This document shows, piece by piece, positions 300 to 16,088 of a stretch of DNA of 39,382 nt. Below the pieces are notes generated by a model. That model worked only from the letters and a program-made list of their open reading frames with translations, ran no database searches and was not told the origin of the DNA. This DNA comes from Winogradskyella sp. (GTDB lineage: Bacteria > Bacteroidota > Bacteroidia > Flavobacteriales > Flavobacteriaceae). Numbering within the stretch: position 1 is the first letter of the stretch; each line of letters opens with the position of its first letter. The DNA lies in NCBI GenBank assembly GCA_030149175.1, contig JASBSA010000084.1:1-39382 (forward strand), read 5' to 3'. A program made the translations under genes and the position numbers.

Positions 300-2864
300 T
301 TATCGTATCCTTTGAATTTCAAACCATGACCTTGATGGATTATTGTCCATTAACAGGCCATTGAAGGTGGTATAGATATAGAATTCAATATAATCTGAGG
401 CATTGAGCTGAACTAAACAGTTTAGGTTTCGACTGACTTGGCCAGCCAGTTCGTGGAGATACAGTACTTCTTTAAATAATGTGCCATTTTTATAGACAGC
501 TAAGCCAATATCACTTGGTACAGATGGCCAGTTTACGGTTTTAAAGGTTGCATTTATTTGGTAATAACCAGTTGTATTGGCAATAAATCTATTGTTAGGG
601 GTATTAAATTCAGATTGTGTATCAATAGCAACGAAATCTAACGGTAATTTCTCGTACCCTGTACCACCGTGAGTCCAGATCAAACTGCGATAAACAACCA
701 AAAGAGAGAAATTATTTACGTTAAAGCTTAAGTTGTTTAGGTTTACGGTTTGTACTGGTTGGCCGTCATCTTCTATGGATAGTCCCAAAGTATTCCCAAC
801 CAAATCAAAATTATCTATTTGCTGGTCGTCGGTTCCTGTGCCATCTTGCAAAGAAGCCAGATCTACAGTTGCTGGTGCTACACCATCATTATCCAGAGAG
901 ATTCCTAGTACAGTACCAACAAGAGCAATATTATCTATGGCTTGATTATCAGTGTTAATCGTTGCATCTTGAAACGAAACATTACCAGCACCATCTGTAG
1001 TCATTACTTGGCCAGCTGTACCATCGTTTCCTGGTAAGAAATAGCGGTTTAATGCTGGATCATTCCCAACAGATACTCTTCCTGAAAAGAATGCTGCATA
1101 ATCGGTTGAATTGTTATCAGCACGAGAGTACACTCCGTAATCTGTCCCAGTTGTAGAGACTACATTGTAGGTTCCATAAGCTTCGTTGCTCACGGATGCT
1201 CCACTAAAAAAAGTTCTATTGCCGTACAGATAACTTGAACTATGTGTCGAGAAAGCCTGGTTATAAACTCCAGTATTATAAGACGATGGATTGGTGGTGT
1301 CAAATGTATTGGTAATACCGGTTGCTCCATCAATGCCAGTATTGTTAAAATAATTTACAACGCCTCTGGCTGTACCAGAAAATCCGAAAGTAAAGAAATT
1401 GTACATGCCTGTTTTAGTTCCGCTACCTGATCCTGAAAAGGAATTACGTATAGCTTGTATAGAAGACCCATTGCTATTGCCGCCAATACTATTGCTTAAA
1501 AGATAAGCATTGGTAGTACCATTTAAAGTTGCACTATTCTCTATACCCTTAACTAGTCCTGAAGAGACAGGTGTTAAAACATTGGATATAGACGTACTAT
1601 TTATAGATGGATTGGTTTCAACATAAAATGTTTTTCCAGAACTGGATGTGTTACCAATTGCTACATTTCCTTGCGTAAAGATATTATCGTTAATGCTTGT
1701 TGGTGATGAGGCACTACCTTGTATATGCCAATCACTATCTTCTGATGAAATATCTTGAAAAGTTACATTACCAGCACCATCTGTGGTCATTACTTGTCCA
1801 GCTGTACCATCAGTAGCAGGCATTAAATAACGATTTGTGGTTGCATTTCCTAATGAGGTTCTACCAATAAAGTAACCTGCATAACCAGTTACGCTAGGGG
1901 TGTAACTATAAACACCATAGTGAGTACCACCTGCTGAACTACTAATATTAGAATAAACACCATATTTATTTCCAGAACCAGAACCAGTTAAACTATTATA
2001 GGCACCATAGTGAGTTCCATTTCCAGAATTAGATATTGAATTTAAAATCCCATATTGTTGTCCATTATTTGTACTTAAGTTTTGACTATAAAATCCATAA
2101 ACGTTCCCAATATAATTACTGGCATTTGTAATTTGAGCTTCATATACCCGAACATCATGATTTGTTTGTGTTGAAATACCATTCATACGAGCACTATAAG
2201 CTTTTGTTCGAGTCGAAACACCAGATGAAGAACTGTTATCGACAACGTAAACTCCATCTAGATTACCTCCAATATTTGAATTGTCTCCGGTTAAATTAAT
2301 TTGAATGCCATCTTCTGATAAAGTATTTAATTCCATTACAGGATTTGTAACACTGCCATTACCTGTACTTTGAATGTCTATCATAGAGCTAGGATTTATA
2401 GTATTAAAACCTATTCTATCGTTATCACCACGAACATAAAATAAATTGTTGAAGTTTTGGCTGTCTATACGTAATCCGTCACCTCCTTGAATTTCAACAG
2501 GACCACTATCTGCTGTAATTATCCTTCCTAACCCAGTACCACCTTCATCATAAGCTTCGTCTAAAGTGTTTTTAGTTCCTAAAATGGAAACCCATGCAGC
2601 ACTCCCATTATCCCAATAATAAAAACCTTTGGTTGGTGTACCATTTCCAGTAGCAAACACCATCATACCATCCTGGTCTACTGTTGGGTTTGTTGATGGA
2701 AAATTGTCTATTCTAGGAATCAAAATCCCATCTTCGTTTGTTGGCGAAGTAGTACTAGAAGCCGAAATATCTAAAGTAGATTTTGGGTCAGTATTGCCAA
2801 CGCCAACCTGAGCGGTAGTAAAAAAACTAAAGCATAAAAACGCTATGATTGTAATTGTCTTCAT
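300..2864 (-). CDS. Exported tail-fibre-like surface protein with C1q-like C-terminal domain
   Basis: 854 residues. Residues 1-18 are a standard signal peptide ending TTA, and the mature protein starts QVGVGNTDPKSTLDIS. This head is shared with the proteins at 9564-12065 and 14973-16088. A WDNGSAAW stretch follows near residue 85. Two large modules then alternate YGVYS-type short repeats with a sequence ending DGTAGQVMTTDGAGN (about residues 350-370 and 612-632). Next come two units of the form DxQxIDNxxLVGxxLxLSL (about 640-710). Residues 715-854 resemble a C1q/TNF jelly roll: a TGYYQINATF strand, IGLAVYKNG, and a final FEIQRIR. The likely role is an extracellular fibrous adhesin or appendage; the ligand is unknown. 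No type IX secretion C-terminal domain is seen. It lies 26 bp downstream of a small exported protein, probably in the same transcript. Confidence 0.85.
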   Translation of the reverse strand: MKTITIIAFLCFSFFTTAQVGVGNTDPKSTLDISASSTTSPTNEDGILIPRIDNFPSTNPTVDQDGMMVFATGNGTPTKGFYYWDNGSAAWVSILGTKNTLDEAYDEGGTGLGRIITADSGPVEIQGGDGLRIDSQNFNNLFYVRGDNDRIGFNTINPSSMIDIQSTGNGSVTNPVMELNTLSEDGIQINLTGDNSNIGGNLDGVYVVDNSSSSGVSTRTKAYSARMNGISTQTNHDVRVYEAQITNASNYIGNVYGFYSQNLSTNNGQQYGILNSISNSGNGTHYGAYNSLTGSGSGNKYGVYSNISSSAGGTHYGVYSYTPSVTGYAGYFIGRTSLGNATTNRYLMPATDGTAGQVMTTDGAGNVTFQDISSEDSDWHIQGSASSPTSINDNIFTQGNVAIGNTSSSGKTFYVETNPSINSTSISNVLTPVSSGLVKGIENSATLNGTTNAYLLSNSIGGNSNGSSIQAIRNSFSGSGSGTKTGMYNFFTFGFSGTARGVVNYFNNTGIDGATGITNTFDTTNPSSYNTGVYNQAFSTHSSSYLYGNRTFFSGASVSNEAYGTYNVVSTTGTDYGVYSRADNNSTDYAAFFSGRVSVGNDPALNRYFLPGNDGTAGQVMTTDGAGNVSFQDATINTDNQAIDNIALVGTVLGISLDNDGVAPATVDLASLQDGTGTDDQQIDNFDLVGNTLGLSIEDDGQPVQTVNLNNLSFNVNNFSLLVVYRSLIWTHGGTGYEKLPLDFVAIDTQSEFNTPNNRFIANTTGYYQINATFKTVNWPSVPSDIGLAVYKNGTLFKEVLYLHELAGQVSRNLNCLVQLNASDYIEFYIYTTFNGLLMDNNPSRSWFEIQRIR
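979..1025. repeat. Intragenic direct repeat, copy 1
   Basis: This 47-bp block differs from the block at 1765-1811 by two bases. Both encode the DGTAGQVMTTDGAGN junction that closes each large module of the C1q-like surface protein. Near-identity at DNA level suggests recent duplication or gene conversion between modules. Confidence 0.85.
1765..1811. repeat. Intragenic direct repeat, copy 2
   Basis: Partner of the 47-bp block at 979-1025, 786 bp apart, in the same reading frame and orientation. Recombination between the two copies would delete 786 bp (262 codons) in frame, which is one complete module. Confidence 0.85.
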
Positions 2865-2868
2865 TATT

Positions 2869-2875
2869 GTAGGGT
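2869..2875 (-). promoter_or_regulatory. CCCTAC element 4 nt before start codon
   Basis: The minus-strand leader reads ACCCTAC, then four bases, then the ATG of the C1q-like surface protein. CCCUAC is complementary to six bases of the AGUAGGGA loop in this gene's own terminator. Equivalent elements precede the starts at 12065, 14729 and 16088. A function in translation control is inferred. Confidence 0.45.
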
Positions 2876-2890: not shown

Positions 2891-3088
2891 TTAAAGTTTA
2901 ACCTCTACATCAAATGTGTTTCTTACATCTTTAAGAATTTTATTGACATAGTAAAGTAGTCCGAGAAAAATTTCACTTCCTCCCAGAATTAGTGGGTTTA
3001 CATTTCCAAATAATTGAATGGAAACATGCCCTGCTAAAAAGCTAGAGTTGATGACTAAAAGCGACACAAGAAATGTAGAGGTTTTCAT
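2891..3088 (-). CDS. Small hydrophobic exported/membrane protein (hypothetical)
   Basis: 65 residues starting MKTSTFLVSLLVINSSFLAG, which looks like a signal peptide or first membrane segment. A second hydrophobic stretch, about residues 34-48 (ILGGSEIFLGLLYYV), is followed by a charged tail ending DVEVKL. I do not recognise a family. Support for its being real: an ATG start; a leader with the CTATTAATC element and a TAGTTTTG -7-like box, both found at the expected distance; and a position 26 bp upstream of the large surface-protein gene, which has no other obvious promoter. It may be a dedicated partner, anchor or leader peptide of that protein. The call is moderate because short hydrophobic ORFs can occur by chance. 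Confidence 0.55.
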   Translation of the reverse strand: MKTSTFLVSLLVINSSFLAGHVSIQLFGNVNPLILGGSEIFLGLLYYVNKILKDVRNTFDVEVKL

Positions 3089-3150: not shown

Positions 3151-3220
3151 GATTATTTTTTCAAAAACAAGGAGTATTTTGTCAAAATGAAGAAGAATGA
3201 CAAGGATTATTTATTCAAAA
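3151..3220. promoter_or_regulatory. Three phased direct repeats, probable activator sites
   Basis: Three 16-bp direct repeats: GATTATTTTTTCAAAA (3151-3166), GAGTATTTTGTCAAAA (3172-3187) and GATTATTTATTCAAAA (3205-3220). Starts are 21 and 33 bp apart, close to two and three helical turns. The last two are also preceded by ACAAG. They lie 25-95 bp upstream of the -7 box of the leftward surface-protein operon and just after the stop of the AraC-output hybrid sensor gene. AraC-family proteins commonly bind paired direct half-sites about 21 bp apart, so that sensor is the natural candidate to bind here (inference). Confidence 0.55.
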
Positions 3221-3244: not shown

Positions 3245-6200
3245 TTAGTTGCGAAATTCAGAAGGGCTTTTTTCAAACTCCTCTTTAAAGGTCTTGCTGA
3301 AATAATTTGGATCGTTAAAACCGACAGCATAAGCAATTTCCGAAATGGATAAATCGGTAGTTTTTAGTAGTTCTTTGCCTTTTTCCAATCGTACTTTTCT
3401 AATAAATATGGCTGTACTGGTATTGGAAATGGCCTTTAATTTTCTGTAGAGTTGCGAGTCGCTCATAGCCATAGCTTTTGCCAATTCCGTGGCACCGAAA
3501 TTTGAATCGTCAATATGGTCTTGAATGTGTTGAATAACGGAATTTAAAAAGATGAGGTTTTTATCTTTTGGTTTAGGTTCTTCTTCCTTTTGCTCCACAA
3601 TAGTATTGACAGCATAACGCTTTTGTAATTGCTTTCTCTTAGCAATAAGCATTTGCATACGCAGCTGTAATTCTTGTTTTTGGAAAGGTTTGGTTAAATA
3701 CGCATCAGCACCACTTGTAATGCCTTCCAGTCGGTCTTCTTGCAAAGCCTTTGAGGTCAACATGATGATAGGAATATGATTGGTGTTGGCATCAGCTTGT
3801 AGCTTCTGGGTTAATTCAAAACCATCCATTATGGGCATCATTACGTCAGTGACAATAATATCTGGGATTTGCGCACTTGCTATTTCCAAGCCTTCTTTTC
3901 CATCCTTGGCAAAGGTGACTTTATAGTTTGGTTTTAAGCACGATGCGACGTAACGTGCCATATCTGCATTGTCTTCAACAATAAGTACAGAGTTGGCATC
4001 GTCATCTGAAATGGCATCATCTATTTGAGGTACAACCGTACCAATGGTCATTTCCCTTTCAATTTGGGCAGCAGGTTTAGTGGCAGCGTTGTTGGTTACG
4101 GGCAGATGAATGGTAAACGTTGTGCCTTTATTTACTTTAGATGTTACGTTGATGTTTCCATTGAATAACTCAACCAACTCTTTGGTTAGAGCCAAGCCAA
4201 CTCCTGTACCTTGCGATACTTTATGTTCGGTATTTTCAACTTGGTAAAAGCGGTCGAAGATAAAAGGTAGCTCGTTTTCATCGATACCGTAGCCTTGATC
4301 GGCAACTTGGATTTGTAACGTGGAAGCATCTTTTTTATTCAGGTTAATATGCAATTCGGAATGTTGAGGTGAAAACTTTATGGCGTTAGAAATGAGGTTG
4401 GTCATTATTTGGCGAATTTTTTCAGCATCAAAATCCATTATAACCTTTTGAGGAGTCGCCGAAAATTTTAAAGACACAACTTTGTCTTTGGCAATACTTT
4501 TAAAGCTTTCTACAATATGCCTTATAAAGTCAACAATATCATTTTGAATAAGATTGACGCTAAGTTGTCCTTTTTCGAGCTTTGCCAGATCGAGCATCTG
4601 GTTAACCAAATCCAGAAGATTATGACTGTTTTGCTCAATGGTTTTTAAAGACGTATTAACATCGTCTTTTTCTGAAAAGCGTTCCTTTAGATTTCCTAAA
4701 TAGCCTAAAATAATGGTTAAGGGTGTTCTAAACTCGTGCGTAATGTTAGTGATGAAACGTGATTTTAAATCATCTAAATCCTTTAGGCGTTTTGATTCTT
4801 GTCCTGCGATTTGACGTTGCAAACTTATTCTGTAGAAGGCATACACAATACCCAAAAATAAAAGCAAATAGGATAGGTAAGCGATATTGCTTTTGTACCA
4901 AGGCGGTGTTACGTTTATTTTTAATTGTAATGGTGGTTTTTGCCAGAGGTCGTTTCTAGATTTTCCTTGAATTTGAAGCGTATAAGATTTTGATGATAAG
5001 TTTAATAACTGAATATTGTTTTCGCTACCTAAAGCATTCCAATCGGTATCGTCAGGTAATAGCTTATATACATAATTAATATTACTGTTTGGCCTAAAAT
5101 CTAACGCCGCAAAATTTAAATTTACTGGGAAATCATCATGGTTAAGGTTGATTTCTTCAGCACTGCTTATGGATGTAGCAAGGATTTCTGAAGTATTGGG
5201 TAAAATATAATCGTCTTTAATCTTAAGACTTGTGAATTTAAGGGTTCCTTCCTTGTCTAATTCTGAAATTCGATTCGGATCAAAAATATTTAGGCCATTA
5301 ATGCCACCAAAATAAAGGTGTCCTGTTTTTTCATTTTTAAATGTTGCACCAAGGTTAAACTCTGTGCTTTGCACGCCATCTTTTGGATTGTAATTGGTAA
5401 ATTCCTCGGTTGTTTTATTGAATGTAAACAAACCACCATTGGTGGATAGCCAGAGGTTACCGAGATCATCTTCGTTAATATTATAAACAAAGGTATTGGT
5501 AAGACCTTCTCGTTTGCCGTATGATTTAAACGTATCGGAAACCGAATCGTATTTGTTAAGTCCTTTTCTACTAGCAACCCAAAGGGTGTTTTCAGAGTCA
5601 ATAAAACTGCTTAAAACCCCTCTCGTAACAAGACCAGAAGATTCGTCATAATTTTTTACCGAAATTAACTCACCATCCTTAAAGTTAAGCTTACTCAATC
5701 CTTTTTGGGTACTCATCCAATAATTCTTTGTAGCATCTTCAACCATAGAAAGTGTGAATACCGAAGCCAAATCTTTAGAGTTGTAGGTTTTGAATCTTAA
5801 ATCATTTGAGGTGACATTACCAATAAATTTTGAAAATCCAGCGTTGAATGTCGTTACCCAAATGTTTCCTGATAGGTCTTTATAAACACTCCGCATATTT
5901 TCTGCTGGAAGTTGAGTGGGATTATTAGCATCAATTGGACATTTAATGATTGTTGGATTTTCAATATCTAAATTCTTTAAAGGAATAATAAACGCACCTT
6001 TATTGGTCACAAACCAGATATTGTTTTCATCATCTCTTGTGATGCCTCTAACTCTATTGTGATGGGTTAAAACGTTAAATTTTGAATTGTCATTATTGCT
6101 AGAAATTACCAATCCGCTTGAAGAGCCTGTAAATAGAAAATCTTCGGTGTCGTAAACTGCAAAAACGGATGGGTTATCTAGATTGAAATTATCCGTAGGT

Positions 6201-7234
6201 TGTTTAAAAACATCTTGTGCTTCAATAGCCGTAATGTCTAAGTTGATGTTGCCAATAAAAAGCAAATTATCATTTATGAAAAGTTCATTAATACCATCGG
6301 AATTTATGGTTGAAGCATCGTATTTTTTATCAGCTATAAAATGTTGTTTTACTTTAAATTGATTACTGTTGAATTCTGAGACTAACAATCCATTTGATCT
6401 TGTGCCTATGTAATAACTACTGTTGGCATAAGCCATTGTGTTGATGTTGTACTTTGAGTGAAGACCATCTTCTATAATCGGAATTTCAGAAAAGCTTTTA
6501 GTATGTTCGGAATATTTTAAAACGCCTTCACTAGTTATTGCCCAAAGGTAATCGTTAAGATATTCAAGGTTGTTGATAGGTGTTTCAAACTTCGCGATTA
6601 GTTCATACGAAAAATCATAACCAGAGTTATTGAGGTCACTTAGTATTACTTTGTAGATATGCCCTTCATCGGTACCAACAAAAATAGTATTGTTTTTAGC
6701 GGCAATACCAGTGATTTTTTCTGGTATATCTTTTTGAAAGTTATTAGAGTAAAAGTCGTGATGTTCGTCAATTACAGCAATGCCATTATCATAAAACGTG
6801 GTAATGATTTTATCATCATATTTAATTAAACGCGTGCAATTAGAGTTAGGCTCGCCAAATTGTGTAATGGTTTCAGTTTTTAGGTTGTATCTTATTAGCC
6901 CGTTTTGACCAGTACCCACATAAAGATAATTGTCTTTAGAAGTTAACGTGCCAATACGATAACCAGCAATATCTAATCCGCTGTTAAGGTCTTGTTGAGG
7001 TACAAAAAAATCTTGCCCATCAAAGCGAACCACACCGTCAGATGTGCCAAGCCAAATAAAACCATTGGCATCTTTTTCTATGCAGTGAATCGTTTCTTGC
7101 GGTAGCCCTTCGTCTAAACCATAATGCGAAAACGTTAAATTTTGGGCACTAGCAATTAAGCTGACTAAACATAAAAGTAGGGAAAGGTTAGTGTTACTTA
7201 ATCTAAGAGAACAAATAGTTATAAAATTCGTCAT
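3245..7234 (-). CDS. Hybrid two-component system sensor/AraC regulator (HTCS)
   Basis: 1329 residues from the ATG at 7232-7234. A TTG eight codons upstream is in frame but less likely, because the ATG is preceded by the CTATTAATC leader element. Domain order: signal peptide or membrane anchor (about 15-32, ending IASAQ); two beta-propeller halves of repeats such as GNLWLSTNGGLFTF; a Y_Y_Y domain before a membrane helix (about 781-805); a HisKA domain with H833 in THEFRTP; an HATPase with an N-box near 945 (LISNAIKFSP) and GTGVGLAL; a receiver with D1130 in VTDVMMP; and a C-terminal AraC-type HTH (about 1230-1329). The family senses an extracellular ligand and controls nearby genes, usually SusC/SusD loci. 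Here the adjacent target appears to be the surface-protein operon, whose upstream repeats follow directly. Confidence 0.95.
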   Translation of the reverse strand: MTNFITICSLRLSNTNLSLLLCLVSLIASAQNLTFSHYGLDEGLPQETIHCIEKDANGFIWLGTSDGVVRFDGQDFFVPQQDLNSGLDIAGYRIGTLTSKDNYLYVGTGQNGLIRYNLKTETITQFGEPNSNCTRLIKYDDKIITTFYDNGIAVIDEHHDFYSNNFQKDIPEKITGIAAKNNTIFVGTDEGHIYKVILSDLNNSGYDFSYELIAKFETPINNLEYLNDYLWAITSEGVLKYSEHTKSFSEIPIIEDGLHSKYNINTMAYANSSYYIGTRSNGLLVSEFNSNQFKVKQHFIADKKYDASTINSDGINELFINDNLLFIGNINLDITAIEAQDVFKQPTDNFNLDNPSVFAVYDTEDFLFTGSSSGLVISSNNDNSKFNVLTHHNRVRGITRDDENNIWFVTNKGAFIIPLKNLDIENPTIIKCPIDANNPTQLPAENMRSVYKDLSGNIWVTTFNAGFSKFIGNVTSNDLRFKTYNSKDLASVFTLSMVEDATKNYWMSTQKGLSKLNFKDGELISVKNYDESSGLVTRGVLSSFIDSENTLWVASRKGLNKYDSVSDTFKSYGKREGLTNTFVYNINEDDLGNLWLSTNGGLFTFNKTTEEFTNYNPKDGVQSTEFNLGATFKNEKTGHLYFGGINGLNIFDPNRISELDKEGTLKFTSLKIKDDYILPNTSEILATSISSAEEINLNHDDFPVNLNFAALDFRPNSNINYVYKLLPDDTDWNALGSENNIQLLNLSSKSYTLQIQGKSRNDLWQKPPLQLKINVTPPWYKSNIAYLSYLLLFLGIVYAFYRISLQRQIAGQESKRLKDLDDLKSRFITNITHEFRTPLTIILGYLGNLKERFSEKDDVNTSLKTIEQNSHNLLDLVNQMLDLAKLEKGQLSVNLIQNDIVDFIRHIVESFKSIAKDKVVSLKFSATPQKVIMDFDAEKIRQIMTNLISNAIKFSPQHSELHINLNKKDASTLQIQVADQGYGIDENELPFIFDRFYQVENTEHKVSQGTGVGLALTKELVELFNGNINVTSKVNKGTTFTIHLPVTNNAATKPAAQIEREMTIGTVVPQIDDAISDDDANSVLIVEDNADMARYVASCLKPNYKVTFAKDGKEGLEIASAQIPDIIVTDVMMPIMDGFELTQKLQADANTNHIPIIMLTSKALQEDRLEGITSGADAYLTKPFQKQELQLRMQMLIAKRKQLQKRYAVNTIVEQKEEEPKPKDKNLIFLNSVIQHIQDHIDDSNFGATELAKAMAMSDSQLYRKLKAISNTSTAIFIRKVRLEKGKELLKTTDLSISEIAYAVGFNDPNYFSKTFKEEFEKSPSEFRN

Positions 7235-7912: not shown

Positions 7913-9337
7913 ATGGATGTGAATAGCACGGACTTTAACGATAACCCTTATTATCAATTGTTTCTAAAGCAACAATCTCAACAGCTCAATATAGGAACCG
8001 TACCTTATAGTGCTCGAATAGAGAAACTAAAAAAACTGAGGACTGCAATTGAAGTAACCTTTAGAGATCAAATTATTGAAGCGTTACACAAAGATTTAAA
8101 CAAGCCTAAAGTAGAAGTAGAGCTCACCGAGATTTATCCGATTATTAGTGAGATTAAATTTGCTAAATCTAATTTGCGTAAATGGATGCGTAAGCAAAAG
8201 GTAGATACACCTATGTCAATGCTTGGTTCAAGTTCTTACTATATTTACGAGCCTAAAGGAGTTTGCTTAATTATTTCGCCATGGAATTTTCCGTTTAATT
8301 TAACGTTTGGGCCTTTGGTGTCTGCAATTGCAGCAGGTAATTCTGTAATTATAAAACCATCGGAGATGACACCAAATTCTTCAGCATTAATGGAAGAAAT
8401 TGTAAAAACTGTTTTTGAAGAGGAGGATGTTGCACTAGTAGAAGGAGAAGTCAAAACATCCACTCAATTATTACAATTACCGTTTAATCACATCTTTTTT
8501 ACAGGGTCGCCTAATGTTGGAAAAATTGTGATGTCTGCAGCTGCTAAACATTTAGCCTCAGTAACACTTGAACTAGGAGGGAAGTCTCCAACAATAATAG
8601 ATAATACTGCTAATGTTGATAAAGCAGCAAAACGTATCGTTTGGGGAAAGTTTATGAATGCAGGACAAATATGCGTATCGCCAGATTATGTGTTGATAGA
8701 TGAAAGTATTAAAGCGAAGTTTATTGAAGCATGTAAAAAATGGATAGAGCGCTATTTTACCAATCAACCTAAAGCATCAGATTCTTACGCAAGGATTGTA
8801 ACCCAAAAGCATTTTGAACGGTTACAATCTCATCTGCAAGATGCAAAAAGCTTAAAAGCTAAAGTAGATATTGGTGGTGAGTTAGAAGCCGATTCAAAAT
8901 ATATAGCGCCAACCTTAGTTTCTAATTTAATTGATGAGGCAACATTATTAGATGAAGAAATTTTTGGGCCTATTTTGCCAATAGTTACTTATAAAACATT
9001 AGACGAAGCGATTGCTTATATTAACGAAAAAGAGCGTCCTTTAGCACTTTATATTTATAGTAGCAGTAAAAGAAATACAAAACACATTATCAAAAATACT
9101 AGAGCAGGTGGTACATGCATTAATAACAACGTGATTCATTATGCTAATCATAACTTACCTTTTGGTGGTGTAAATAATAGTGGTATAGGTAAAAGCCATG
9201 GTTTTTATGGTTTCAAAGCTTTTAGCAACCAACGCGCTGTGGTAAAGCAACATACCTTTGGTATTAATGAATTGCTGTTTCCACCATACACTAATTTTAA
9301 GGAGAAACTTGCCAAACTCACTATAAAGTGGTTTTAA
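7913..9337 (+). CDS. Aldehyde dehydrogenase, ALDH3-like
   Basis: 474 residues. It oxidises aldehydes to carboxylates with NAD(P)+. The ISPWNFPFNL motif (about residue 122), IKPSE, FFTGSPNVGK, the general base E220 in LELGGKSP and the catalytic nucleophile C254 in GQICVSPDY are all present and correctly spaced. Length, the LPFGGVNNSGIGKSHG motif and the C-terminal PPYTNFKEK region fit the ALDH3/fatty-aldehyde branch. No signal peptide, so cytosolic. The substrate cannot be told; medium or long-chain aldehydes from lipid turnover are likely for this branch. It stands alone between an upstream divergent gene and a hairpin that starts 3 bp after its stop. No clear link to the surface-protein genes was seen. 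Confidence 0.93.
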   Translation: MDVNSTDFNDNPYYQLFLKQQSQQLNIGTVPYSARIEKLKKLRTAIEVTFRDQIIEALHKDLNKPKVEVELTEIYPIISEIKFAKSNLRKWMRKQKVDTPMSMLGSSSYYIYEPKGVCLIISPWNFPFNLTFGPLVSAIAAGNSVIIKPSEMTPNSSALMEEIVKTVFEEEDVALVEGEVKTSTQLLQLPFNHIFFTGSPNVGKIVMSAAAKHLASVTLELGGKSPTIIDNTANVDKAAKRIVWGKFMNAGQICVSPDYVLIDESIKAKFIEACKKWIERYFTNQPKASDSYARIVTQKHFERLQSHLQDAKSLKAKVDIGGELEADSKYIAPTLVSNLIDEATLLDEEIFGPILPIVTYKTLDEAIAYINEKERPLALYIYSSSKRNTKHIIKNTRAGGTCINNNVIHYANHNLPFGGVNNSGIGKSHGFYGFKAFSNQRAVVKQHTFGINELLFPPYTNFKEKLAKLTIKWF

Positions 9338-9339
9338 GC

Positions 9340-9376
9340 AAAAAAGGGAATTGCTCCCTACTGCAAATTCCCTTTT
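9340..9376 (+). terminator. Bidirectional terminator hairpin (copy 2 of the shared loop)
   Basis: Stem 9346-9354/9363-9372 with a one-base bulge, loop TCCCTACT on the plus strand, flanked by A6 and T4. It begins 3 bp after the aldehyde dehydrogenase stop. On the minus strand it could be a backup terminator for the S74 surface-protein gene, with loop AGTAGGGA and a T6 tail. It has the same loop as copies at 248, 9486 and 14858. Confidence 0.8.
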
Positions 9377-9438
9377 AATGATTTTTCTGTACTAAATTAA
9401 TAGCAATACAAATGTATTTTAAATAAGTTATTAAGGTC

Positions 9439-9457
9439 TCATCCTTTTGGGTGATTT
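9439..9457. repeat. Imperfect palindrome TCATCCTTTTGGGTGA, copy 1
   Basis: A 19-bp sequence, TCATCCTTTTGGGTGATTT, identical to 12125-12143. The first 16 bases form an imperfect palindrome (6-bp arms, T4 centre). This copy lies between two terminators at the 3' side of the S74 surface-protein gene and the other copy lies at its 5' side. Confidence 0.5.
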
Positions 9458-9472
9458 ATTAAATATTGAAAT

Positions 9473-9502
9473 AAAAAAAAGCCACTCCCTACTGCGGCTT
9501 TT
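9473..9502 (-). terminator. Intrinsic terminator, loop AGTAGGGA (copy 3)
   Basis: Stem from 9481-9485 paired with 9494-9498, extended by A/T pairs, with loop 9486-9493. A run of eight A (9473-9480) becomes the U tail on the minus strand. One position pairs as G-U only in the minus-strand RNA and is an A/C mismatch on the other strand. It therefore ends the leftward S74 surface-protein transcript, about 60 bp after its stop. Confidence 0.85.
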
Positions 9503-9563
9503 CCGCCCAAAAACATAATTGCTCCTTTTAAACAATTAGTATTAAATTTTGATTAACAACAGA

Positions 9564-12065
9564 TTAATCTTCAGTAGTATTATTGCTGACTGATGTACTA
9601 TAAGAGTTATTATTTTCTAATGCTAAAATTCTTGCCTCTAGTTGCTCTAATCTGCTTAATTTTTCTTTTAAAATGGTATTTTCTGTTTTTAGTGTTTCAA
9701 TTTTTGTGTTTAATTCTTGAATCGCTTTTACGGTAACAGGAATTATATCAGAATAGTAAACACCAAGATTAGTAACTGGTCGCATTTCTTCTACACCTGT
9801 TTCTTCATCTATAGTTACGGATTCTTCGGTAACAACAACTTCTGGTAGTACTTCTAATAAATTTTGTGCAGAGAAGCCTATTTTAGTAGCTGGATTAGAT
9901 GATTTTTTCCAACTAAATGTTAATGTTTCAACCTGCATTAATTCTTCTAAACCATATTCTAAAGGTTTAATATTTTTCTTTTGACGTAAGTCACTGGTAT
10001 TTATAGTACCATCTCCTGCCCAAAGTGCTTGCCACCTCCAATTAGAAGTACCTAAAGATCTAACGTTATCATCAAAAGGTAATAGTCTACCATGAAGCAT
10101 CATGTAAAGGTTGCCAACATCAAATAAAAATTCCGTACTACCTATTCCTGTTGTTGTATTTCTATTTATTCCATCAATTTCAAAATCAGCTACGTAATTC
10201 ACTGTTGCTGTCACACCATTTACTACTCTGGTGTTACCATTCTCTGCCAATCCAAGTGCCGTACTTTGTCCAATTCTAACTACATTTTCACTGGCATCTA
10301 CCCAAAACATATGGCTTCTGGTATCAGATTCTATTCTAAAATCGGCATTATTGTTTCCTTGATCATTAAAAACAGTTATGCCATTGCCATGTATCCTGTG
10401 ATTCACAGTATTATTTTGGTAAATATCTAAAACGCCGTCATCACCACTATCATAAAGTCGAGCCAAAATATCACCTGAATTTACGGCGCCATCTCGAAGC
10501 CATAAATCATCTGAATAAAATGAATTGCCTGTTACATTAAACGTTCCTGCAGTATTTGTGGCTCCTATTGAGACTCTATTTATTCCAGCATCAACCAAAA
10601 ACATATTTTCATTAGTATTGGATTCTACTCTAAAGTCTCTGTCTAAACCTTGTTGGTTAAAGACAGCTGCAGTGTTAGCATTTAAGTCTATAGATACTAT
10701 TCCGTTTTCATAGATTTGAAGTCTACCATCATCATCCATATCTATAAACCTTGCTAAAATTGTAGATGATGCATCAGAGTTTTCATCCCTTAAATATAAA
10801 TCACCACCAAAAACAGCATCACCAAAGGCATTCATCTCGAATTTGTCTACGCCAGCATCTTGTACTTTAAATGTGCCTGAACTGTTGACATTGAAGATCA
10901 TGTCAAACGTATTATTGGTAATAGTAGTGTTCTGATTTAGAGTTCCTCCTAGCCTAACTTGGTTTCCTGTAGCTGACAATCCATTGAGAGCAGTTACTAC
11001 TCCAAGAGTACTCGGGTTTGTCCAACTAGCGGTTCCATTAGCGTCTGTTGTTAATACATAACCGTTTGACTGGTTTCCATCTGTATATTGAAGATTGCCG
11101 TTGATGTCTAAGGTTGCATCTGGAGTCGGATCACCAATACCAATATTGCCATCACCTGTTACTACCATAATGTTACCAGTACCAGTATGGAACAGATTGA
11201 AACGACTGTTAGCAGCTATATTATCAGTGTCCCCAAAAAAAGTCCATACATTACCATTAGTTGTACCTGTATTGGTGAAATTTACACGAGCACCGCTAGA
11301 TCCAACATCTACTAAGTTAATATGTGGTTGAGCGCCAGTATTATTAGCCAGAATATCTAAAAACCCATTACCAATTGTTTGGCCTATTGCTACTTTACCT
11401 TGAGTATAGATATTATCATTAATACTATTGGGTTCATTAGTTGTACTCTGTGTATACCAATCGTGATCAGAATTGTCGAGTGAGGAAAGATTAACGTTTT
11501 GGGGTGTTCCGTTTTCAATACCAACAGTTAGAATATTTGTAGAATTATTAAATGATAAGTTTTGTATGTTTTGATCATCAGTACCTGTTCCATCTTGTAA
11601 TGAGGCTAAGTTTACCGTTTGTAACGGTTGACCATCATTTATAAGAGATAACCTAAGTGTGGTGCCAACAAGGCTAAAATTATCAATGGTTTGATTATCT
11701 TGATCAATACCTGCGTTTATTTTAATCCAATCATTAGCAGTGTCGTCCCAATAGTAAAAACCTTTACCATCTTCACCAGTATTGTCATAAAACACCATCA
11801 TACCATCTTGGTTTGCAGTCATAGAGACATCTGCTGGTAAATTGGTAACACGAGGTATCAATATACCATCTTGATTGGTTGGTGAAGTTGTGTTAGAAGC
11901 ACTAATATCCAATTGTGCTTGTGGGTTGGTATTGCCAACACCTACTTGGGCCAATAGACTGTGGCCAATTAAAAAGATAAGGATTACTATAACACCTATG
12001 GCAAAGTTCTTAAACGGAGTTTTACTTAATGTATCTTTTGAATCATTTGGGTTAGTAGTATTCAT
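9564..12065 (-). CDS. Exported tail-fibre-like protein with peptidase S74 (endosialidase chaperone) domain
   Basis: 833 residues. An unusually long n-region of about 22 residues precedes the hydrophobic segment and an LLAQ cleavage site; the mature head QVGVGNTNPQAQLDIS follows. Repeats of the DNQTIDNFSLVGTTLRLSL type come next (about 122-200), then two tandem modules of about 85 residues (LYLRDENSD...VDAGINRVSIG and LWLRDGAVN...VDASENVVRIG). The C-terminus is an S74 chaperone of endosialidase domain with NTSDLRQKKNIKPL. S691 and K696 match the Ser/Lys dyad (SDxRxK) of self-cleaving tail-fibre chaperones. A coiled coil follows (about 785-825). By family analogy the C-terminal part assists trimer folding and may then be released. 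It is transcribed leftward, divergent from the TPR kinase gene. Confidence 0.88.
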   Translation of the reverse strand: MNTTNPNDSKDTLSKTPFKNFAIGVIVILIFLIGHSLLAQVGVGNTNPQAQLDISASNTTSPTNQDGILIPRVTNLPADVSMTANQDGMMVFYDNTGEDGKGFYYWDDTANDWIKINAGIDQDNQTIDNFSLVGTTLRLSLINDGQPLQTVNLASLQDGTGTDDQNIQNLSFNNSTNILTVGIENGTPQNVNLSSLDNSDHDWYTQSTTNEPNSINDNIYTQGKVAIGQTIGNGFLDILANNTGAQPHINLVDVGSSGARVNFTNTGTTNGNVWTFFGDTDNIAANSRFNLFHTGTGNIMVVTGDGNIGIGDPTPDATLDINGNLQYTDGNQSNGYVLTTDANGTASWTNPSTLGVVTALNGLSATGNQVRLGGTLNQNTTITNNTFDMIFNVNSSGTFKVQDAGVDKFEMNAFGDAVFGGDLYLRDENSDASSTILARFIDMDDDGRLQIYENGIVSIDLNANTAAVFNQQGLDRDFRVESNTNENMFLVDAGINRVSIGATNTAGTFNVTGNSFYSDDLWLRDGAVNSGDILARLYDSGDDGVLDIYQNNTVNHRIHGNGITVFNDQGNNNADFRIESDTRSHMFWVDASENVVRIGQSTALGLAENGNTRVVNGVTATVNYVADFEIDGINRNTTTGIGSTEFLFDVGNLYMMLHGRLLPFDDNVRSLGTSNWRWQALWAGDGTINTSDLRQKKNIKPLEYGLEELMQVETLTFSWKKSSNPATKIGFSAQNLLEVLPEVVVTEESVTIDEETGVEEMRPVTNLGVYYSDIIPVTVKAIQELNTKIETLKTENTILKEKLSRLEQLEARILALENNNSYSTSVSNNTTED

Positions 12066-12068
12066 AAT

Positions 12069-12088
12069 GTAGAGAATTGATTAATAGC
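12069..12088 (-). promoter_or_regulatory. Leader with CTCTAC element and CTATTAATC
   Basis: The minus-strand leader contains GCTATTAATC (12088-12079), then TCTCTAC (12075-12069), then three bases to the ATG. The UCUCUAC heptamer can pair with GUAGGGA of the terminator loop with one G-U pair. The same arrangement precedes the collar-domain gene at 16088. Confidence 0.45.
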
Positions 12089-12124
12089 ATGGTGTAAAAT
12101 TCTTAAATTGTATTAGGTTTCATT

Positions 12125-12143
12125 TCATCCTTTTGGGTGATTT
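12125..12143. promoter_or_regulatory. Imperfect palindrome TCATCCTTTTGGGTGA, copy 2 (candidate operator)
   Basis: Identical to 9439-9457. It sits in the 123-bp divergent region between the S74 surface-protein gene and the TPR kinase gene, about 20 bp upstream of the latter's -7 box. A half-site GGGTGATTT also occurs at 14736-14744, before the LuxR-type regulator gene. That regulator could plausibly bind here (inference). Confidence 0.4.
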
Positions 12144-12162
12144 TAGAAGTCAATAGGTTTGT

Positions 12163-12188: not shown

Positions 12189-14111
12189 ATGAAAATCAAT
12201 CACATATTCCTTGGTATATGCTTGGCATTCAGTTATCTAGCGTATTGCCAAGATGCACCTGTGGATTCCTATCAGAATAGTTTACAGAAGGTTATTGATA
12301 GCGATATATCTAAAAGTGTTAAAAAAGAATCGTTGTTCTTATTGGGAGAGTATTTGGTTCAGCGAGACCCAGATAAAGCCGAACTAATTGCTAAAGATTT
12401 AGAGGCTAATTACATTGAAAATGATAGTAATGAGATACGTCGTAACAACTATATTTTTGCAGCCAGTCACAGATGGCATGGAGATTATAAAACCGCATTA
12501 GACTTTTATAGAGATATAAACTCTTTTTCCAAAAAGCGTAATGATTCTATAGATATTGCCAAGAGTGCACATTTTATAGGAACAATCTCAATGTTTTTAG
12601 GGAATAATGTAGAGTCTCAAAATATGCTTTTAGAAGCGGCATCTATTTATGATAAAATAGGAAGTGCAAAACAAAAAGCCAGAATTAATAATACACTTGC
12701 AGGTTTTTACCTTAACGTAGATCAGCTTGAAAAGGGAAAACAACAATATTTAAAAGCTTTAAAGCAGTTTGAAGTCTTGCAAGACAGCTCTGGTTTGGCA
12801 AGTGTTAATGCTAATCTTGGAATGTTGTATACTGACTTGGGAGAATACGATAAGGCAGAATATCATCTAATGAAGCAAAAGGAATACAATGTGGTGTTTC
12901 CAACATTGAGAGAAATGGGCTTTCATCATGATTTTCTTGGGTTGTTAAGGCAAGAACAAAACCGACTAGATGAAGCTTATGAAGAACATTTAAGGGCTTT
13001 AAAAATCCGTGAAAATTTAAGTAGTACTTACAACCTATGTGAATCTAAAATTCATATGGGTGAAATCTTAATAAAGCTAAAAAGATATGATGAAGCCATA
13101 GATCAACTTAATGATGTATTTTCTTTTGAAGAACATGAATCTTTAAACCAAGAGCAACGTGCTTATGATCTGCTAGCTGAGGCTTATGAAAAAAAAGGAG
13201 ATTACAAATCGGCACTCAATAACTTCAAAGCTTACAAAACGATGACTGATTCAATCTATACAAAAGAATCGATTGAAATCATCGCTGAGAAAGATGCACG
13301 ATACAATCAGCAAAAGAAAGACGCTAAAATTGCATTGCTAAATAAGGAAAAGGAAATCTCACAGACCAAATTATCGCGTTCTAGATCTATAATGATTATT
13401 TCTTTGATTGGTCTTGGTTTACTAGCCATTGCAGCTCTAGCCTTGTTAAAGATGAATCGAAAAATAAAAAGTAAAAACGAAACGATTTCCAAAGCTTTAA
13501 AGGATAGAGAGTTACTGTTGCACGAAACCCATCATCGTGTAAAGAATAATCTTCAGATGATTTCAAGTTTGCTTAATCTGCAATCTAAATATGTGAAGGA
13601 TGATAATGTTTTAGAAGTGCTTCAAAATGGGAGAAACCGTGTACAATCTATGGCTATTCTACATAAAAATTTATATGTAGGAGAGGATCTAAATATGGTG
13701 AATATTCAACATTATTTTGAAGGATTGGTAGACAGCATTTTAAATTCTTATAACAAGACAGAGAATGATATAGACTTAAGGATTGATGCAGAAAAAGTTA
13801 CCATGGATGTAGAGTCTGTAATTCCTCTTGGTTTAATTGTTAATGAGTTGGTTACTAATTCATTAAAGCATGCTTTTCCGAAGGATATTAAAACTAAGCC
13901 TGAGATAACTTTAAAAATGTCTGAACGGGAGGATTTTTATACCTTAAAGGTTGCAGATAATGGTGTTGGTATACAAAACGATATTATAGAAAATGGTAAT
14001 AAGGAGTCTTTTGGTCAACGTCTTATAAAATCGCTTTCCAAAAAACTAAAAGCATCTATTAGTATTACTAACGATAACGGAACTTCAGTCTCTTTTGAGC
14101 TTCCAAAATAA
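12189..14111 (+). CDS. TPR-containing sensor histidine kinase, HisKA_2 family
   Basis: 640 residues. Residues 1-20 are a signal peptide ending AYCQ. Several tetratricopeptide repeats follow (about 95-360, e.g. ASVNANLGMLYTDLGEYDKAEYHL), then a coiled coil, a membrane helix (about 400-422), and a cytoplasmic kinase core. The HisKA_2 phosphoacceptor is H448 (or H449) in THHRVKNNLQMISSLLNLQS. The ATPase N-box is LIVNELVTNSLKHAF, followed by DNGVGI and FGQRLIKSLSKKLKA. The periplasmic TPR region probably senses a protein or peptide partner. The response-regulator gene lies tail-to-tail with a 3-bp gap, so the pair converges rather than forming an operon. It is paralogous to the kinase at 16964-18889. 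Confidence 0.92.
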   Translation: MKINHIFLGICLAFSYLAYCQDAPVDSYQNSLQKVIDSDISKSVKKESLFLLGEYLVQRDPDKAELIAKDLEANYIENDSNEIRRNNYIFAASHRWHGDYKTALDFYRDINSFSKKRNDSIDIAKSAHFIGTISMFLGNNVESQNMLLEAASIYDKIGSAKQKARINNTLAGFYLNVDQLEKGKQQYLKALKQFEVLQDSSGLASVNANLGMLYTDLGEYDKAEYHLMKQKEYNVVFPTLREMGFHHDFLGLLRQEQNRLDEAYEEHLRALKIRENLSSTYNLCESKIHMGEILIKLKRYDEAIDQLNDVFSFEEHESLNQEQRAYDLLAEAYEKKGDYKSALNNFKAYKTMTDSIYTKESIEIIAEKDARYNQQKKDAKIALLNKEKEISQTKLSRSRSIMIISLIGLGLLAIAALALLKMNRKIKSKNETISKALKDRELLLHETHHRVKNNLQMISSLLNLQSKYVKDDNVLEVLQNGRNRVQSMAILHKNLYVGEDLNMVNIQHYFEGLVDSILNSYNKTENDIDLRIDAEKVTMDVESVIPLGLIVNELVTNSLKHAFPKDIKTKPEITLKMSEREDFYTLKVADNGVGIQNDIIENGNKESFGQRLIKSLSKKLKASISITNDNGTSVSFELPK

Positions 14112-14114: not shown

Positions 14115-14729
14115 CTAATGTAATAAGGTGTGTACTAAGGCAATTGTTTCAGAGCGTGTATGCGTATTCATTTTTTCGTAAATATTCTTAATGTGTGTTT
14201 TTACAGTATTAACACTTACAAATTGAGATTCTGCTAATTGTCTGTTGGTTTTACCTTCATATAAGCCTTCTAAAATTTCAAACTCTCTTTGTGTTAGCGG
14301 AGTATTGATTTTAGAATTTATCATTTCAATTTTAAGTGAAACAGGTAATACGAACTTTGAAAAGTTATAAAGTGCCACTTCAATATTAGAATAAAGCTCT
14401 TTTTCATTAAAGGGTTTTACGATATAACCCATTGGCATTGTTGGTTTAGCACGTTCAAGAATTTCTTTACCAGAATACGATGTAAGATATAAAAAAGGGA
14501 CTCTACGTGTTTTATTAATGTGTGCAGCAACTTCAAACCCTTCGTAATTACCATCTAGATTAATATCTAAAAGTACTAGGTCTGGTTGCTCATCATTAAT
14601 ATAATCTATGGCTTCTGCTTTAGAATATGCCACAGCTACAACGCTATAATCTACATTTGTAAGCATATCATGAATATCCTCTCCAATGATTGGGTCATCT
14701 TCAACAATAAGCACTCTTATAGTAGACAT
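14115..14729 (-). CDS. Response regulator, receiver plus LuxR-type HTH
   Basis: 204 residues. The receiver (1-125) has the acidic pocket E10-D11-D12, phosphoacceptor D55 in LLDINL, T83 and K105 in YIVKPF. A GerE/LuxR-type DNA-binding domain occupies about 140-204, with LTQREFEILEGLYEGKTNRQ and VSVNTVKTHIKNIYEKM. It is a phosphorylation-controlled transcription factor, most likely partner of the HisKA_2 kinase that converges on it (stop codons 3 bp apart). Its receiver is closely similar to that of the LytTR regulator at 16194 (both have PxGYIxKPF and a following SNI). Its leader carries the CCCTAC element seen before the surface-protein genes. Confidence 0.94.
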   Translation of the reverse strand: MSTIRVLIVEDDPIIGEDIHDMLTNVDYSVVAVAYSKAEAIDYINDEQPDLVLLDINLDGNYEGFEVAAHINKTRRVPFLYLTSYSGKEILERAKPTMPMGYIVKPFNEKELYSNIEVALYNFSKFVLPVSLKIEMINSKINTPLTQREFEILEGLYEGKTNRQLAESQFVSVNTVKTHIKNIYEKMNTHTRSETIALVHTLLH

Positions 14730-14732
14730 GTT

Positions 14733-14739: not shown

Positions 14740-14847
14740 GATTTAAAAAAGTTTACAGCAAGTTACTAAGCAGAACGTGAGTTTCAAAAAAAGACGATAT
14801 AAATCTGATTTTATTGATAAATAGTAGATTAGATTTTAAATAAAATG

Positions 14848-14875
14848 AAAAAGCCGCTCCCTACTGCGGCTTTTT
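14848..14875 (-). terminator. Intrinsic terminator, loop AGTAGGGA (copy 4)
   Basis: Perfect 10-bp stem AAAAAGCCGC/GCGGCTTTTT around the loop at 14858-14865. It lies 98 bp after the stop of the leftward collar-domain gene. The A/T-rich stem ends make it usable in both directions. Confidence 0.88.
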
Positions 14876-14972
14876 CTGTTATCCGACTTAATTTTATAAT
14901 GTCGGTCTCAAAACATAGTTGTTGTGTTTTAATAATCAAAGATTGTTTGTTTTTGCCTTGTTAACTCATCTT

Positions 14973-16088
14973 TCAATATTTAATGCAATAAACGACAGAT
15001 ATATTAACAGGTCTGGTTTCGGAGGATCCTGTAAGGGATGAATTAAAAGCTGGTATATTAATAGTATGGCTATGATTAACTGAAGCGTTAGTATTAAATG
15101 AAGGAATAGTAATAGTATGGCTGTGTATTCCTGTTGAATTTGTATTTAGAGCAGGTATGTTAACTGTGTGGAAGTGATTGCCTGTGGTTGTGGTGTTAAT
15201 TACGTCTGGGCCACTAGTGCCAAAATCATCGACAACAAAATCGGGACTGGAAAAAGTACTGTAATCGATGTTTCCTTCGACACCTCTAACTTGGTGCGAA
15301 TGATTCCCTGAAGTACTTGTGGTCGTTGTTGTTGGGTTTATAATGTGTTGGTGTCCACCTGCATTAGAAGTTGCAACACCAAAGCTGTTTACACTATGGC
15401 TGTGATTTCCGCTAAAACCTGAAGTGGAAGAAGGTGTGTTTATTTCATGTAGGTGGCTCGCCATTTCAGCATCTTGTGTGGTTCCAACCGCATCTCCAGT
15501 TGTTCCGTCTCCTCTATCTTGGCGTGTAGCAGCATCAGGGTCGTTACCAGCACCATCGTCATATCCTCTTAAAAACTTGCCCCTGTAATCGGGTAAGTTA
15601 AATGTTGTAGAACCATCACCTGACCCATATGTGGTTCCTAAAACGGCAAAAAGTTCAGCGTAGGTAGTCCTACTTACAGCACTTCCATCACAAACTAAAT
15701 ATCCTACTGGAGGGGTTTCTAATGGAAAACTAAAAATAGCGCCTGTGGGTACAGGGTCTTTACTTTCTTTAAGTAATCTGTCCCATGAAGAACCATCATA
15801 AAAATAAAACCCTATTACATCATTGGTTTGATAAACCATAAGGCCATCTGCTGGAGTGGCAATTGCTAAACGTTCGCTCACAGTCATTCTAGGTATTAGA
15901 ATACCCTTATCGCTAGACTCTATATCCAAAGCACTTGATGCATTTGGATTAGTAGTACCAATGCCAACTTGTGCAAATAGGCTGTGTCCTATTAAAAAGA
16001 TAAGAATGACAAAAACACCTATGGCAAAATTTTTAACAGGATGTTTACTCAATGTTTTATTTGAGTCGTTTGAGTTGCTTGTATTCAT
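14973..16088 (-). CDS. Exported tail-collar domain protein with histidine-rich repeats
   Basis: 371 residues. The extended N-terminus is nearly identical to that of the S74 protein: MNTSNSNDSNKTLSKHPVKN, then a hydrophobic segment and LFAQ, then mature QVGIGTTNPNASSALDIES. A YDGSSWDRLL stretch leads to a phage tail-collar domain (about 112-180: GAIFSFPLETPPVGYLVCDG, then FNLPDYRGKFLRGYD). Residues about 205-355 are a low-complexity array with seven HxH motifs. It includes three tandem units of the form HSHTIxIPxFN, and the protein ends SVVYCIKY. In T4-type fibres, HxH motifs coordinate metal along a trimer axis; a similar metal-stabilised fibre tip is inferred. No other phage genes are nearby, so this is read as a cellular surface protein. 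Confidence 0.87.
   Translation of the reverse strand: MNTSNSNDSNKTLSKHPVKNFAIGVFVILIFLIGHSLFAQVGIGTTNPNASSALDIESSDKGILIPRMTVSERLAIATPADGLMVYQTNDVIGFYFYDGSSWDRLLKESKDPVPTGAIFSFPLETPPVGYLVCDGSAVSRTTYAELFAVLGTTYGSGDGSTTFNLPDYRGKFLRGYDDGAGNDPDAATRQDRGDGTTGDAVGTTQDAEMASHLHEINTPSSTSGFSGNHSHSVNSFGVATSNAGGHQHIINPTTTTTSTSGNHSHQVRGVEGNIDYSTFSSPDFVVDDFGTSGPDVINTTTTGNHFHTVNIPALNTNSTGIHSHTITIPSFNTNASVNHSHTINIPAFNSSLTGSSETRPVNISVVYCIKY

Follow-up and report, generated by a model that had tools for sequence, protein, structure and literature searches.

Candidate sensor-gated slots for exchangeable phage-type fibres in Winogradskyella and related Bacteroidota

Why should the chromosome of a marine bacterium encode several proteins built like phage tail fibres, each next to sensory genes of its own? 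The question is raised by a 39,382-nt stretch of DNA (the window) from Winogradskyella sp. (GenBank assembly GCA_030149175.1, contig JASBSA010000084.1, positions 1 to 39,382), a metagenome-assembled genome of 75% completeness in 160 contigs. The window carries three fibre genes, whose products (fibres 1, 2 and 3) share an N-terminal head and differ in their C-terminal ends. Our favoured reading, to which we give a probability of about 0.6, is that the fibres are gated by sensors and that conserved cassette borders allow their bodies to be swapped through homologous recombination. A first-pass annotation had proposed a cellular fibre family with exchanged ends and linked sensors; comparison with relatives bears this out in the variety of ends behind the head, in the unlike tips found at one slot and in the linkage to regulators, and tempers it in that heads mostly keep their ends.

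Unlike fibre bodies at shared chromosomal slots

The three predicted open reading frames (ORFs) were recovered, all on the minus strand and with a common head (Table 1). The mature start of each follows the pattern QVGxGxTxPxAxLDI...GILIPR...GLMV...GFYFYD...W, and the five head proteins of this genome agree in 20 invariant columns, 3 of which lie within the signal peptide. Fibres 1 and 2 also have in common, as had been noted, the repeats DGTGTDDQ and IDNFxLVGxxLxLS, and their likeness extends to the DNA (positions 823-950 against 11572-11699, 69%). An extended signal peptide with matching 5′ DNA is common to fibres 2 and 3 and absent from fibre 1; the matching stretch (~170 bp, 77% identical) comprises the end of the promoter, the signal peptide and the first head codons, and on this comparison it is leader and promoter end, not a head subtype, that unite fibres 2 and 3. 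The head of fibre 3 travels with its Collar tip, which suggests that exchange often replaces the whole mature protein.

Loci from relatives were retrieved with the seed pattern QVG[VI]G[NT]T[NTD]P, and those given numbers here are the best 80 of at least 351 confirmed, so that motif constancy among them is biased. Fibres from relatives were chosen by us from the best matches listed, ORFs were called with our own caller (minimum 95-100 aa) and labels are BLAST-based. Before counts were made, identical C-termini and loci on contigs shared with other loci (L060, L064, L090 and L108) were left out in part. Twenty arbitrary 19-kb stretches (380 kb) of five Winogradskyella genomes served as controls, for other genera as well.

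Each fibre gene of the window adjoins one of three sensor/regulator modules, whose composition as read from the sequence was upheld by Pfam: a hybrid two-component system sensor (HTCS), a HisKA_2 kinase with a LuxR-type regulator, and a LytTR regulator with a HisKA_2 kinase. From Asparaginase_2 to the aldehyde dehydrogenase (ALDH) gene, the gene order is kept in relatives and the fibre differs, so that the suggested comparison across genomes did find different tips at one syntenic slot. Slot A, after the LytTR gene (at least 50% identical to that of the window) and its kinase, holds an S74 end in five of 14 loci, a Collar end in three, a C1q-like end in three, an FG-GAP type in one and two other classes in one locus each; a 440-aa gene intervenes in L050 and L067. 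Slot B, beside the kinase/LuxR pair, holds S74 in four loci and Collar in one, with a further Collar in L279 and S74 in L269. Since Collar ends occur in both slots, a Collar fibre is found beside two different sensors. Slot C, after the HTCS and on the other side of the ALDH gene, holds a C1q-like end in nine loci (L048 and L074 among them) and S74 in L050, with one gene intervening in L074 and in L050. The window has slots A and B in tandem and the other loci retrieved have one of them; genome G017 has a second, more distant slot-A-like module and G019 has neither.

The DNA just upstream of the fibre genes is constant where the bodies vary. Repeat A (ACTA-N17-ACTAAAA, 21-bp step) lies 58-137 bp before the start in 13 of the 14 slot-A loci, whichever end the fibre carries, and occurs again before the LytTR gene in eight loci. 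It was not found in the control stretches (both strands), which says little because about two matches would be expected there; its constant position is the informative part. The slot-B inverted repeat TCACCC-AAAA-GGATGA is kept, imperfectly, in five fibres, one of them a Collar fibre, and the slot-C direct repeat with its 21-bp step stands upstream in seven loci and in none of the control stretches on either strand. A direct repeat of ~21 bp fits a LytTR regulator, and an inverted repeat one of the LuxR type. More generally, 34 of 54 scorable Winogradskyella heads lie no more than two genes from a two-component gene, compared with 6 of 232 genes from the arbitrary stretches; in the other genera retrieved the figure is 22 of 73 heads (same Winogradskyella control). 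For the putative wiring of each sensor to its fibre, conserved position is the one line of evidence.

Other short sequences near these genes were also noted. A copy of repeat A before the kinase gene of the window (18930-18957) has two mismatches and was discarded as not above chance (14 matches, 9.3 expected). The word GCTATTAATC stands shortly before the start codons of fibre 2, fibre 3 and the small ORF of fibre 1 (12078-12088, 16096-16106 and 3104-3114, minus strand), and in fibres 1 and 3 it follows a putative -7 box; it has 29 copies in the genome against five of the reversed word, and many of the others are not at evident promoters. In L269, the slot-B inverted repeat appears by eye in perfect form before a second slot-B gene (L269:3250-6129), which codes for a further secreted repeat protein, with VGIGTTTP close to its end, and slot B may accept other surface proteins of this kind.

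Two comparisons bear directly on exchange, which is well supported by alignment of these loci. Fibre 3 and the S74 fibre of G028 share slot, promoter and leader DNA (65-89% in 40-column windows), and identity falls to ~47-65% past the signal peptide. In W. eckloniae L067, Collar and S74 fibres stand in tandem, with repeats of the leader (278 bp, 87%) and of ALDH (926 bp, 97%), which points to a recent tandem duplication and is the arrangement that homologous recombination would leave. DNA inversion of the shufflon type found no support: Pfam scans of the window returned no recombinase, and one unrelated inverted pair of at least 20 bases was present. On a quick tree of 146 heads (~75 columns), 126 of them labelled by 10 end classes, ends change 28 times, against a minimum of 9 and a mean of 68.5 with shuffled labels.

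The 3′ borders are marked by hairpins. The pattern G[CT]NGTAGGGAG[CT] gave 27 distinct matches in the retrieved loci, 25 of them at the 3′ ends of fibre or ALDH genes (L182 and L184, two of the 25, belong to fibres at other places in the genome) and none in the control stretches; the word GC[A/T]GTAGGGAGCGRC gave 34 matches in 17 of 60 genomes and none when reversed, and the looser word GCAGTAGGGAG gave 20 against 5 in its control. In the hairpins at 228-263, 9335-9370, 9466-9501 and 14838-14873 the loop [A/T]GTAGGGA is constant and the stems vary, which is unusual for plain terminators. Operator and hairpins occur downstream of a fibre without a gene at 9338-9563 of the window and in L038, L063 and L277, the operator copies in the window and L063 being partial (by eye or DNA comparison), and in G019 the interval from Asparaginase_2 to ALDH contains an operator-like repeat and a hairpin but no fibre. 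We read these ORF-less stretches as probable scars of lost cassettes. At L270:11830-13640 the fibre of a slot-A module is broken into two or more frames, and hairpins flank the module at either side.

The same stretches admit another explanation, in which the locus would vary by ordinary gene turnover and the scars would encode small RNAs under LytTR or LuxR control, each closed by a hairpin of conserved loop. The spacing of operator, GCTATTAAT(C) element and hairpin would suit a transcript of ~60 nt, and loops are conserved while stems vary. Set against this are G019, a genome of 99% completeness that has the operator-like repeat and hairpin and in which no LytTR relative was found at E ≤ 1e-20, and the tandem duplication with ALDH in L067, which displays cassette gain directly; we consider small RNAs with ordinary turnover an improbable account of the locus.

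Table 1. Features of the window, with positions, strand and basis of assignment.
Feature	Position	Strand	Basis
Fibre 1 (P0001, 854 aa): signal peptide, head, repeat shaft, C1q-like end	300..2864	-	ORF, profile, model
Fibre 1 mature head	2583..2810	-	profile match
Fibre 1 C1q/TNF-like jelly-roll end, last ~135 residues confident	303..767	-	AF2, Foldseek, VIA
Conserved 65-aa small ORF between HTCS and fibre 1	2891..3088	-	6 loci, third-position bias
Operator-like direct repeat C, TTTGA-AAAATA twice, 21-bp step, HTCS slot	3154..3186	-	
HTCS (Reg_prop, Y_Y_Y, HisKA, HATPase, REC, HTH_18), paired with fibre 1	3245..7258	-	Pfam; same order in relatives
ALDH, conserved slot flank	7913..9337	+	Pfam, relatives
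Empty-cassette-like scar, without ORF	9338..9563	-	hairpins around 9484-9495 and 9353-9364; 19-nt exact copy of operator B at 9439-9457
Fibre 2 (P0002, 833 aa): extended signal peptide, head, shaft, S74	9564..12065	-	ORF, Pfam
Fibre 2 Peptidase_S74 domain, residues 691-744, S-D-x-x-x-K present	9834..9995	-	Pfam, motif
Fibre 2 mature head	11718..11948	-	profile match
Fibre 2 leader copy, 77% identical to 15939-16106	11916..12088	-	DNA comparison
Operator-like block B, imperfect inverted repeat, LuxR/kinase slot	12123..12144	-	
TPR-HisKA_2 sensor kinase, slot B	12189..14111	+	Pfam
LuxR-type response regulator, slot B	14115..14729	-	Pfam
Fibre 3 3′ hairpin, loop AGTAGGGA	14838..14873	-	kin copies 228-263, 9466-9501
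Fibre 3 (P0003, 371 aa): extended signal peptide, head, Collar, 7 HxH motifs	14973..16088	-	ORF, Pfam
Fibre 3 phage Tail Collar domain, residues 116-173	15570..15743	-	Pfam
Fibre 3 mature head	15771..15971	-	AF2 model
Fibre 3 leader copy	15939..16106	-	DNA comparison
Operator-like 21-bp direct repeat A, ACTAAA-N15-ACTAAAA, LytTR slot	16147..16174	-	
LytTR response regulator, slot A	16194..16907	-	Pfam
HisKA_2 sensor kinase, slot A	16964..18889	-	Pfam
Asparaginase_2, slot flank	18974-19987		
Adjoining glycan gene set: Asparaginase_2, MFS, GH92, GH20, CutC, GH2 (context, unproven part)	18974..30453		Pfam

C-terminal ends, head and distribution

The last 155 residues of fibre 1 were modelled by AlphaFold2 (AF2) with a mean predicted local distance difference test score of 89.7, the first 17 of them poorly, and the model is of the C1q/TNF-type jelly-roll fold. 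Foldseek returned 394 PDB chains at E ≤ 0.001, with the phi812 knob and C1q-like proteins at the top of the list; VIA gave a Z score of ~18 to C1q domains; and a 13-row profile of the tip matched cerebellin and C1q (best fused-trimer E 3.9e-21, best single-domain E 3.2e-7). Pfam gave no match to fibre 1, the C1q model included, and in a relative that model stayed under its cut-off (20.1 against 23.7). Compared with the members of the superfamily that share the fold (Caprin-2, C1QL, cerebellin, collagen X and the phi812 spike knob; Z ~16-19 over ~130 aligned residues), the end of fibre 1 is bacterial, sits on a phage-like shaft and is only ~7-15% identical.

All three end types originally named are present, and one of them probably has a different part to play. 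The Peptidase_S74 domain of fibre 2 scores 46.2 bits (cut-off 22), and the motif S-D-x-x-x-K, whose Ser/Lys pair is catalytic in S74 domains, is found in 39 of the 45 members of its C-terminal cluster. Because the S74 domain of endosialidases is an intramolecular chaperone that cuts itself off, that of fibre 2 should not be counted as a tip: by analogy it is probably a removable assembly chaperone, and the tip would be the part preceding it. The Collar domain of fibre 3 scores 85.2 bits (cut-off 24) and matches T4 gp12 with E 2e-7, and the end as a whole aligns over 98% of its length with a Sinorhizobium phage fibre, at 39% identity. Within its cluster of five, seven HxH motifs occur in four members (fibre 3 and three relatives) and five in the remaining one; T4 gp37 binds iron through HxH motifs. 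The C1q, Collar and S74 families all form trimers. The tail-fibre tip of Bizionia argentinensis was not returned by PDB searches with the three fibres and two profiles.

The head itself matched nothing in Pfam, NCBIfam or the PDB by sequence, so that a known family can be set aside, and PHROGs gave a single weak match, over the head of fibre 1 (phrog_9563, E 0.12). Among the collected head ORFs, 153 of 156 have Gln at the likely mature start, none of the 156 has a lipobox-like Cys motif by a simple pattern, and the first head match begins at residue 41 or before in 137 of 138 distinct ORFs (at residue 91 in the other). Predicted alone by AF2 from a 97-row alignment, the head is confident from about residue 24 onwards and poor over its first 20 residues. 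With this model, Foldseek found five viral models at E ≤ 0.001 (39-46% identity) and no PDB entry at that threshold, and VIA listed Mtd, a tailspike, a phage hyaluronidase and the trimerisation domains of collagens XV/XVIII at Z 3 to 4.5, with no clear family (Z under 5), which is not evidence of a new fold. The model suggests that the head is a small trimerisation domain, and the fold, with up to 46% identity in predicted phage proteins, rules out a purely cellular domain.

Such likeness raises the possibility that the fibres are remnants of a prophage or of a phage-like particle (a tailocin or contractile injection system) of which the tail-fibre genes alone persist, the tips and the head fold being common to phage fibres. 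All three fibres, by contrast, carry signal peptides, the metabolic flanks of the slots are conserved in several genera, and no prophage context was seen at the locus among the relatives retrieved. As first described, the window also holds no portal, terminase, capsid or baseplate family, in 22 main ORFs by Pfam or 13 by PHROGs, scans that left out four further ORFs of at least 90 aa overlapping scanned ones. A tblastn search with leader plus head gave weak partial matches in 15 phage records, none of which covers 80% of the query, and a scan of viral contigs gave two head loci, L058, a protein with a signal peptide on a viral-labelled contig, and L059, without that leader. A prophage or particle remnant is accordingly rejected as extremely unlikely.

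The head is widespread. It was found in 31 of 60 genomes drawn from the genus and order (this one included) and in 63 of 296 genomes, in 40 of 139 genera, drawn from the phylum. Two genomes of the same order, G038 and G048, have 70 and 41 head matches, a very large expansion of surface proteins, and the head genes L084 and L121, on contigs labelled as Gammaproteobacteria and Limnohabitans metagenome-assembled genomes, are probably from misbinned Flavobacteria. The 135 complete head proteins form 29 C-terminal clusters, the largest with S74 (45) and C1q-like (23) ends and the rest smaller; adding more Winogradskyella loci brought this to 153 proteins in 30 clusters. When 30 proteins (29 cluster representatives and one extra) were compared with Pfam, 16 had no match; S74, Collar, FG-GAP_2, P_proprotein, SO2946-like_C and Lcl_C reached their cut-offs, and C1q, Gp10_C, YadA_head, Phage_depo_C and a second Lcl_C fell below theirs. 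Three repeat-rich representatives gave scattered Pfam matches, apparently spurious.

Export, neighbouring genes and points against

How the fibres might leave the periplasm is the least settled step. The type IX sorting domain TIGR04183 was absent from the three fibres at E ≤ 1, and no head protein matches a tail profile built from nine neighbouring genes. In Winogradskyella, a type IX cargo gene stands directly upstream on the same strand of 21 of 58 heads, compared with 3 of 268 genes from the arbitrary stretches; downstream the figures are 2 of 58 and 3 of 268, and upstream in other genera 8 of 85. All eight upstream cargo neighbours scanned reach the TIGR04183 cut-off, and a ninth neighbour, the L050 gene of 440 aa, matched nothing in NCBIfam. 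The arrangement, a cargo gene (~640 aa where read) with the head fibre 40-135 bp behind it, was noted in L189, L191, L193, L199, L066, L085 and L091. A type IX-exported partner may thus carry or anchor the fibre.

The fibres could instead be soluble or periplasmic proteins, serving envelope stress or glycan uptake rather than adhesion, with the regulators neighbours by history. This would agree with the want of an anchor or type IX signal in the fibres and with the glycan-degradation genes next to them, and HTCS sensors usually sense glycans and control their use. It is harder to square with ends that resemble receptor-binding domains, with a diversity of ends that better fits contact outside the cell, and with the sister fibres so often placed directly behind type IX cargo genes; we hold a periplasmic role to be unlikely.

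The adjoining enzymes bear on what might be bound. GH92, GH20, GH2 and Asparaginase_2, the last of which we take to be of the glycosylasparaginase type, look like an N-glycan set. Because such a set adjoins and HTCS usually sense glycans, one may guess that the fibres of this locus bind glycoprotein-rich surfaces. No SusC/SusD pair was found among the 22 window ORFs (Pfam), so that the locus does not qualify as a polysaccharide utilisation locus. The HTCS (P0004) has its full domain set, with Y_Y_Y alone slightly below its cut-off (25 against 26.6). The small ORF beside it encodes a hydrophobic product of equal length in all six loci where it was found, with changes mostly at third positions in closer pairs; a conserved-motif search did not find it in L041, L048 and L074.

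Several observations weigh against sensor-gated, exchangeable fibres. Neither an outer-membrane anchor nor a type IX signal was found in the fibres, none of the three in the window adjoins a type IX partner, and surface display is only inferred; the Z scores of the head (at most 4.5) lie in the inconclusive range of the tool. Slot C nearly always carries a C1q-like end, and the head tree suggests that head and end are mostly inherited together with repeated exceptions, a partial rather than free reassortment. Repeat A is missing from L072, and 7 of its 33 matches in the retrieved loci (L090 and L108 left out) have no evident role; its bare word, with 13 matches in this genome against 19 for the control, is not rare, and the idea of operator A as a rare word was dropped. 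Some hairpins lie away from fibres (L272, L275, L281 and L284), and the scars could be small RNA genes instead. Orthologous loci, finally, share ancestry, so that Fisher tests overstate and their P values are only indicative.

A working model and its meaning

Under the favoured reading, the chromosome would offer slots for exchangeable surface fibres, each slot with its own two-component sensor. When a sensor fires, its regulator would bind the operator just upstream and switch on the fibre of that slot, which would be exported by Sec (signal peptide, then the mature Gln) and would trimerise through its N-terminal head. Folding would be aided by a trimer module at the C terminus (C1q jelly roll, Collar/HxH needle or self-cutting S74), leaving the binding end exposed to attach to glycans or other surfaces, and a type IX-secreted partner might assist export beyond the periplasm. 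Constant borders, the operator and leader at the 5′ side and the terminator-like hairpin and ALDH gene at the 3′ side, would let homologous recombination between them replace, duplicate or remove the fibre bodies. We put forward more tentatively, at somewhat less than even odds, that this constitutes a slot-and-cassette system of Flavobacteria, in which phage-type bodies with a cellular signal peptide are moved between one-sensor slots and rewired by recombination at operator/leader and hairpin, and in which many sister fibres are paired, as two-gene units, with a type IX protein that might serve as their carrier or anchor.

Fibre modules of the phage type and cassettes for adhesins are already known, and the putative system resembles several of them in part. 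With phage tail fibres (T4 gp12 with its Collar, S74 fibres and tailspikes, the HxH needle of T4 gp37) it shares Collar and S74 motif, and the fibre 3 end its likeness to a Sinorhizobium phage fibre; the window fibres differ in being chromosomal, in having a Sec signal peptide and a neighbouring two-component sensor each, and in that no particle genes were seen. Trimeric autotransporter adhesins (type Vc, YadA) have the same modular plan of stalk and head, and one relative shows a sub-threshold YadA_head match (22.2 against 25 bits), whereas the head of the window fibres is another one and no YadA C-terminal anchor was found by Pfam in the three fibres or in 29 cluster representatives (up to the last 600 residues). 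The regulators have the full domain sets of Bacteroidota hybrid two-component systems and LytTR/LuxR pairs, and here appear to control a neighbouring fibre gene rather than a SusC/SusD pair. Shufflons and pilin/opa cassettes likewise combine a constant 5′ end, a variable 3′ body and tandem cassettes; the window has no recombinase or fitting inverted repeats, and its own repeats suit homologous recombination between lineages. Among the entries listed from the open-licence literature (titles and beginnings of abstracts) we found no description of the head family, of a sensor paired with each slot, of the constant upstream repeats or of whole-body exchange.

Bacteroidota are leading marine glycan degraders, and to our knowledge little is known of how they choose surfaces outside the SprB-type gliding adhesins. 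The head gives a handle on a large unnamed family of surface proteins, present in about one fifth of the sampled genomes of the phylum, and the constant upstream repeats make the pairing of sensor and fibre directly testable. The different ends at sensor-linked slots suggest a mix-and-match kit for touching surfaces; if this is true, cells would be using phage-type receptor-binding parts under sensor control, with ends and signals re-paired naturally.

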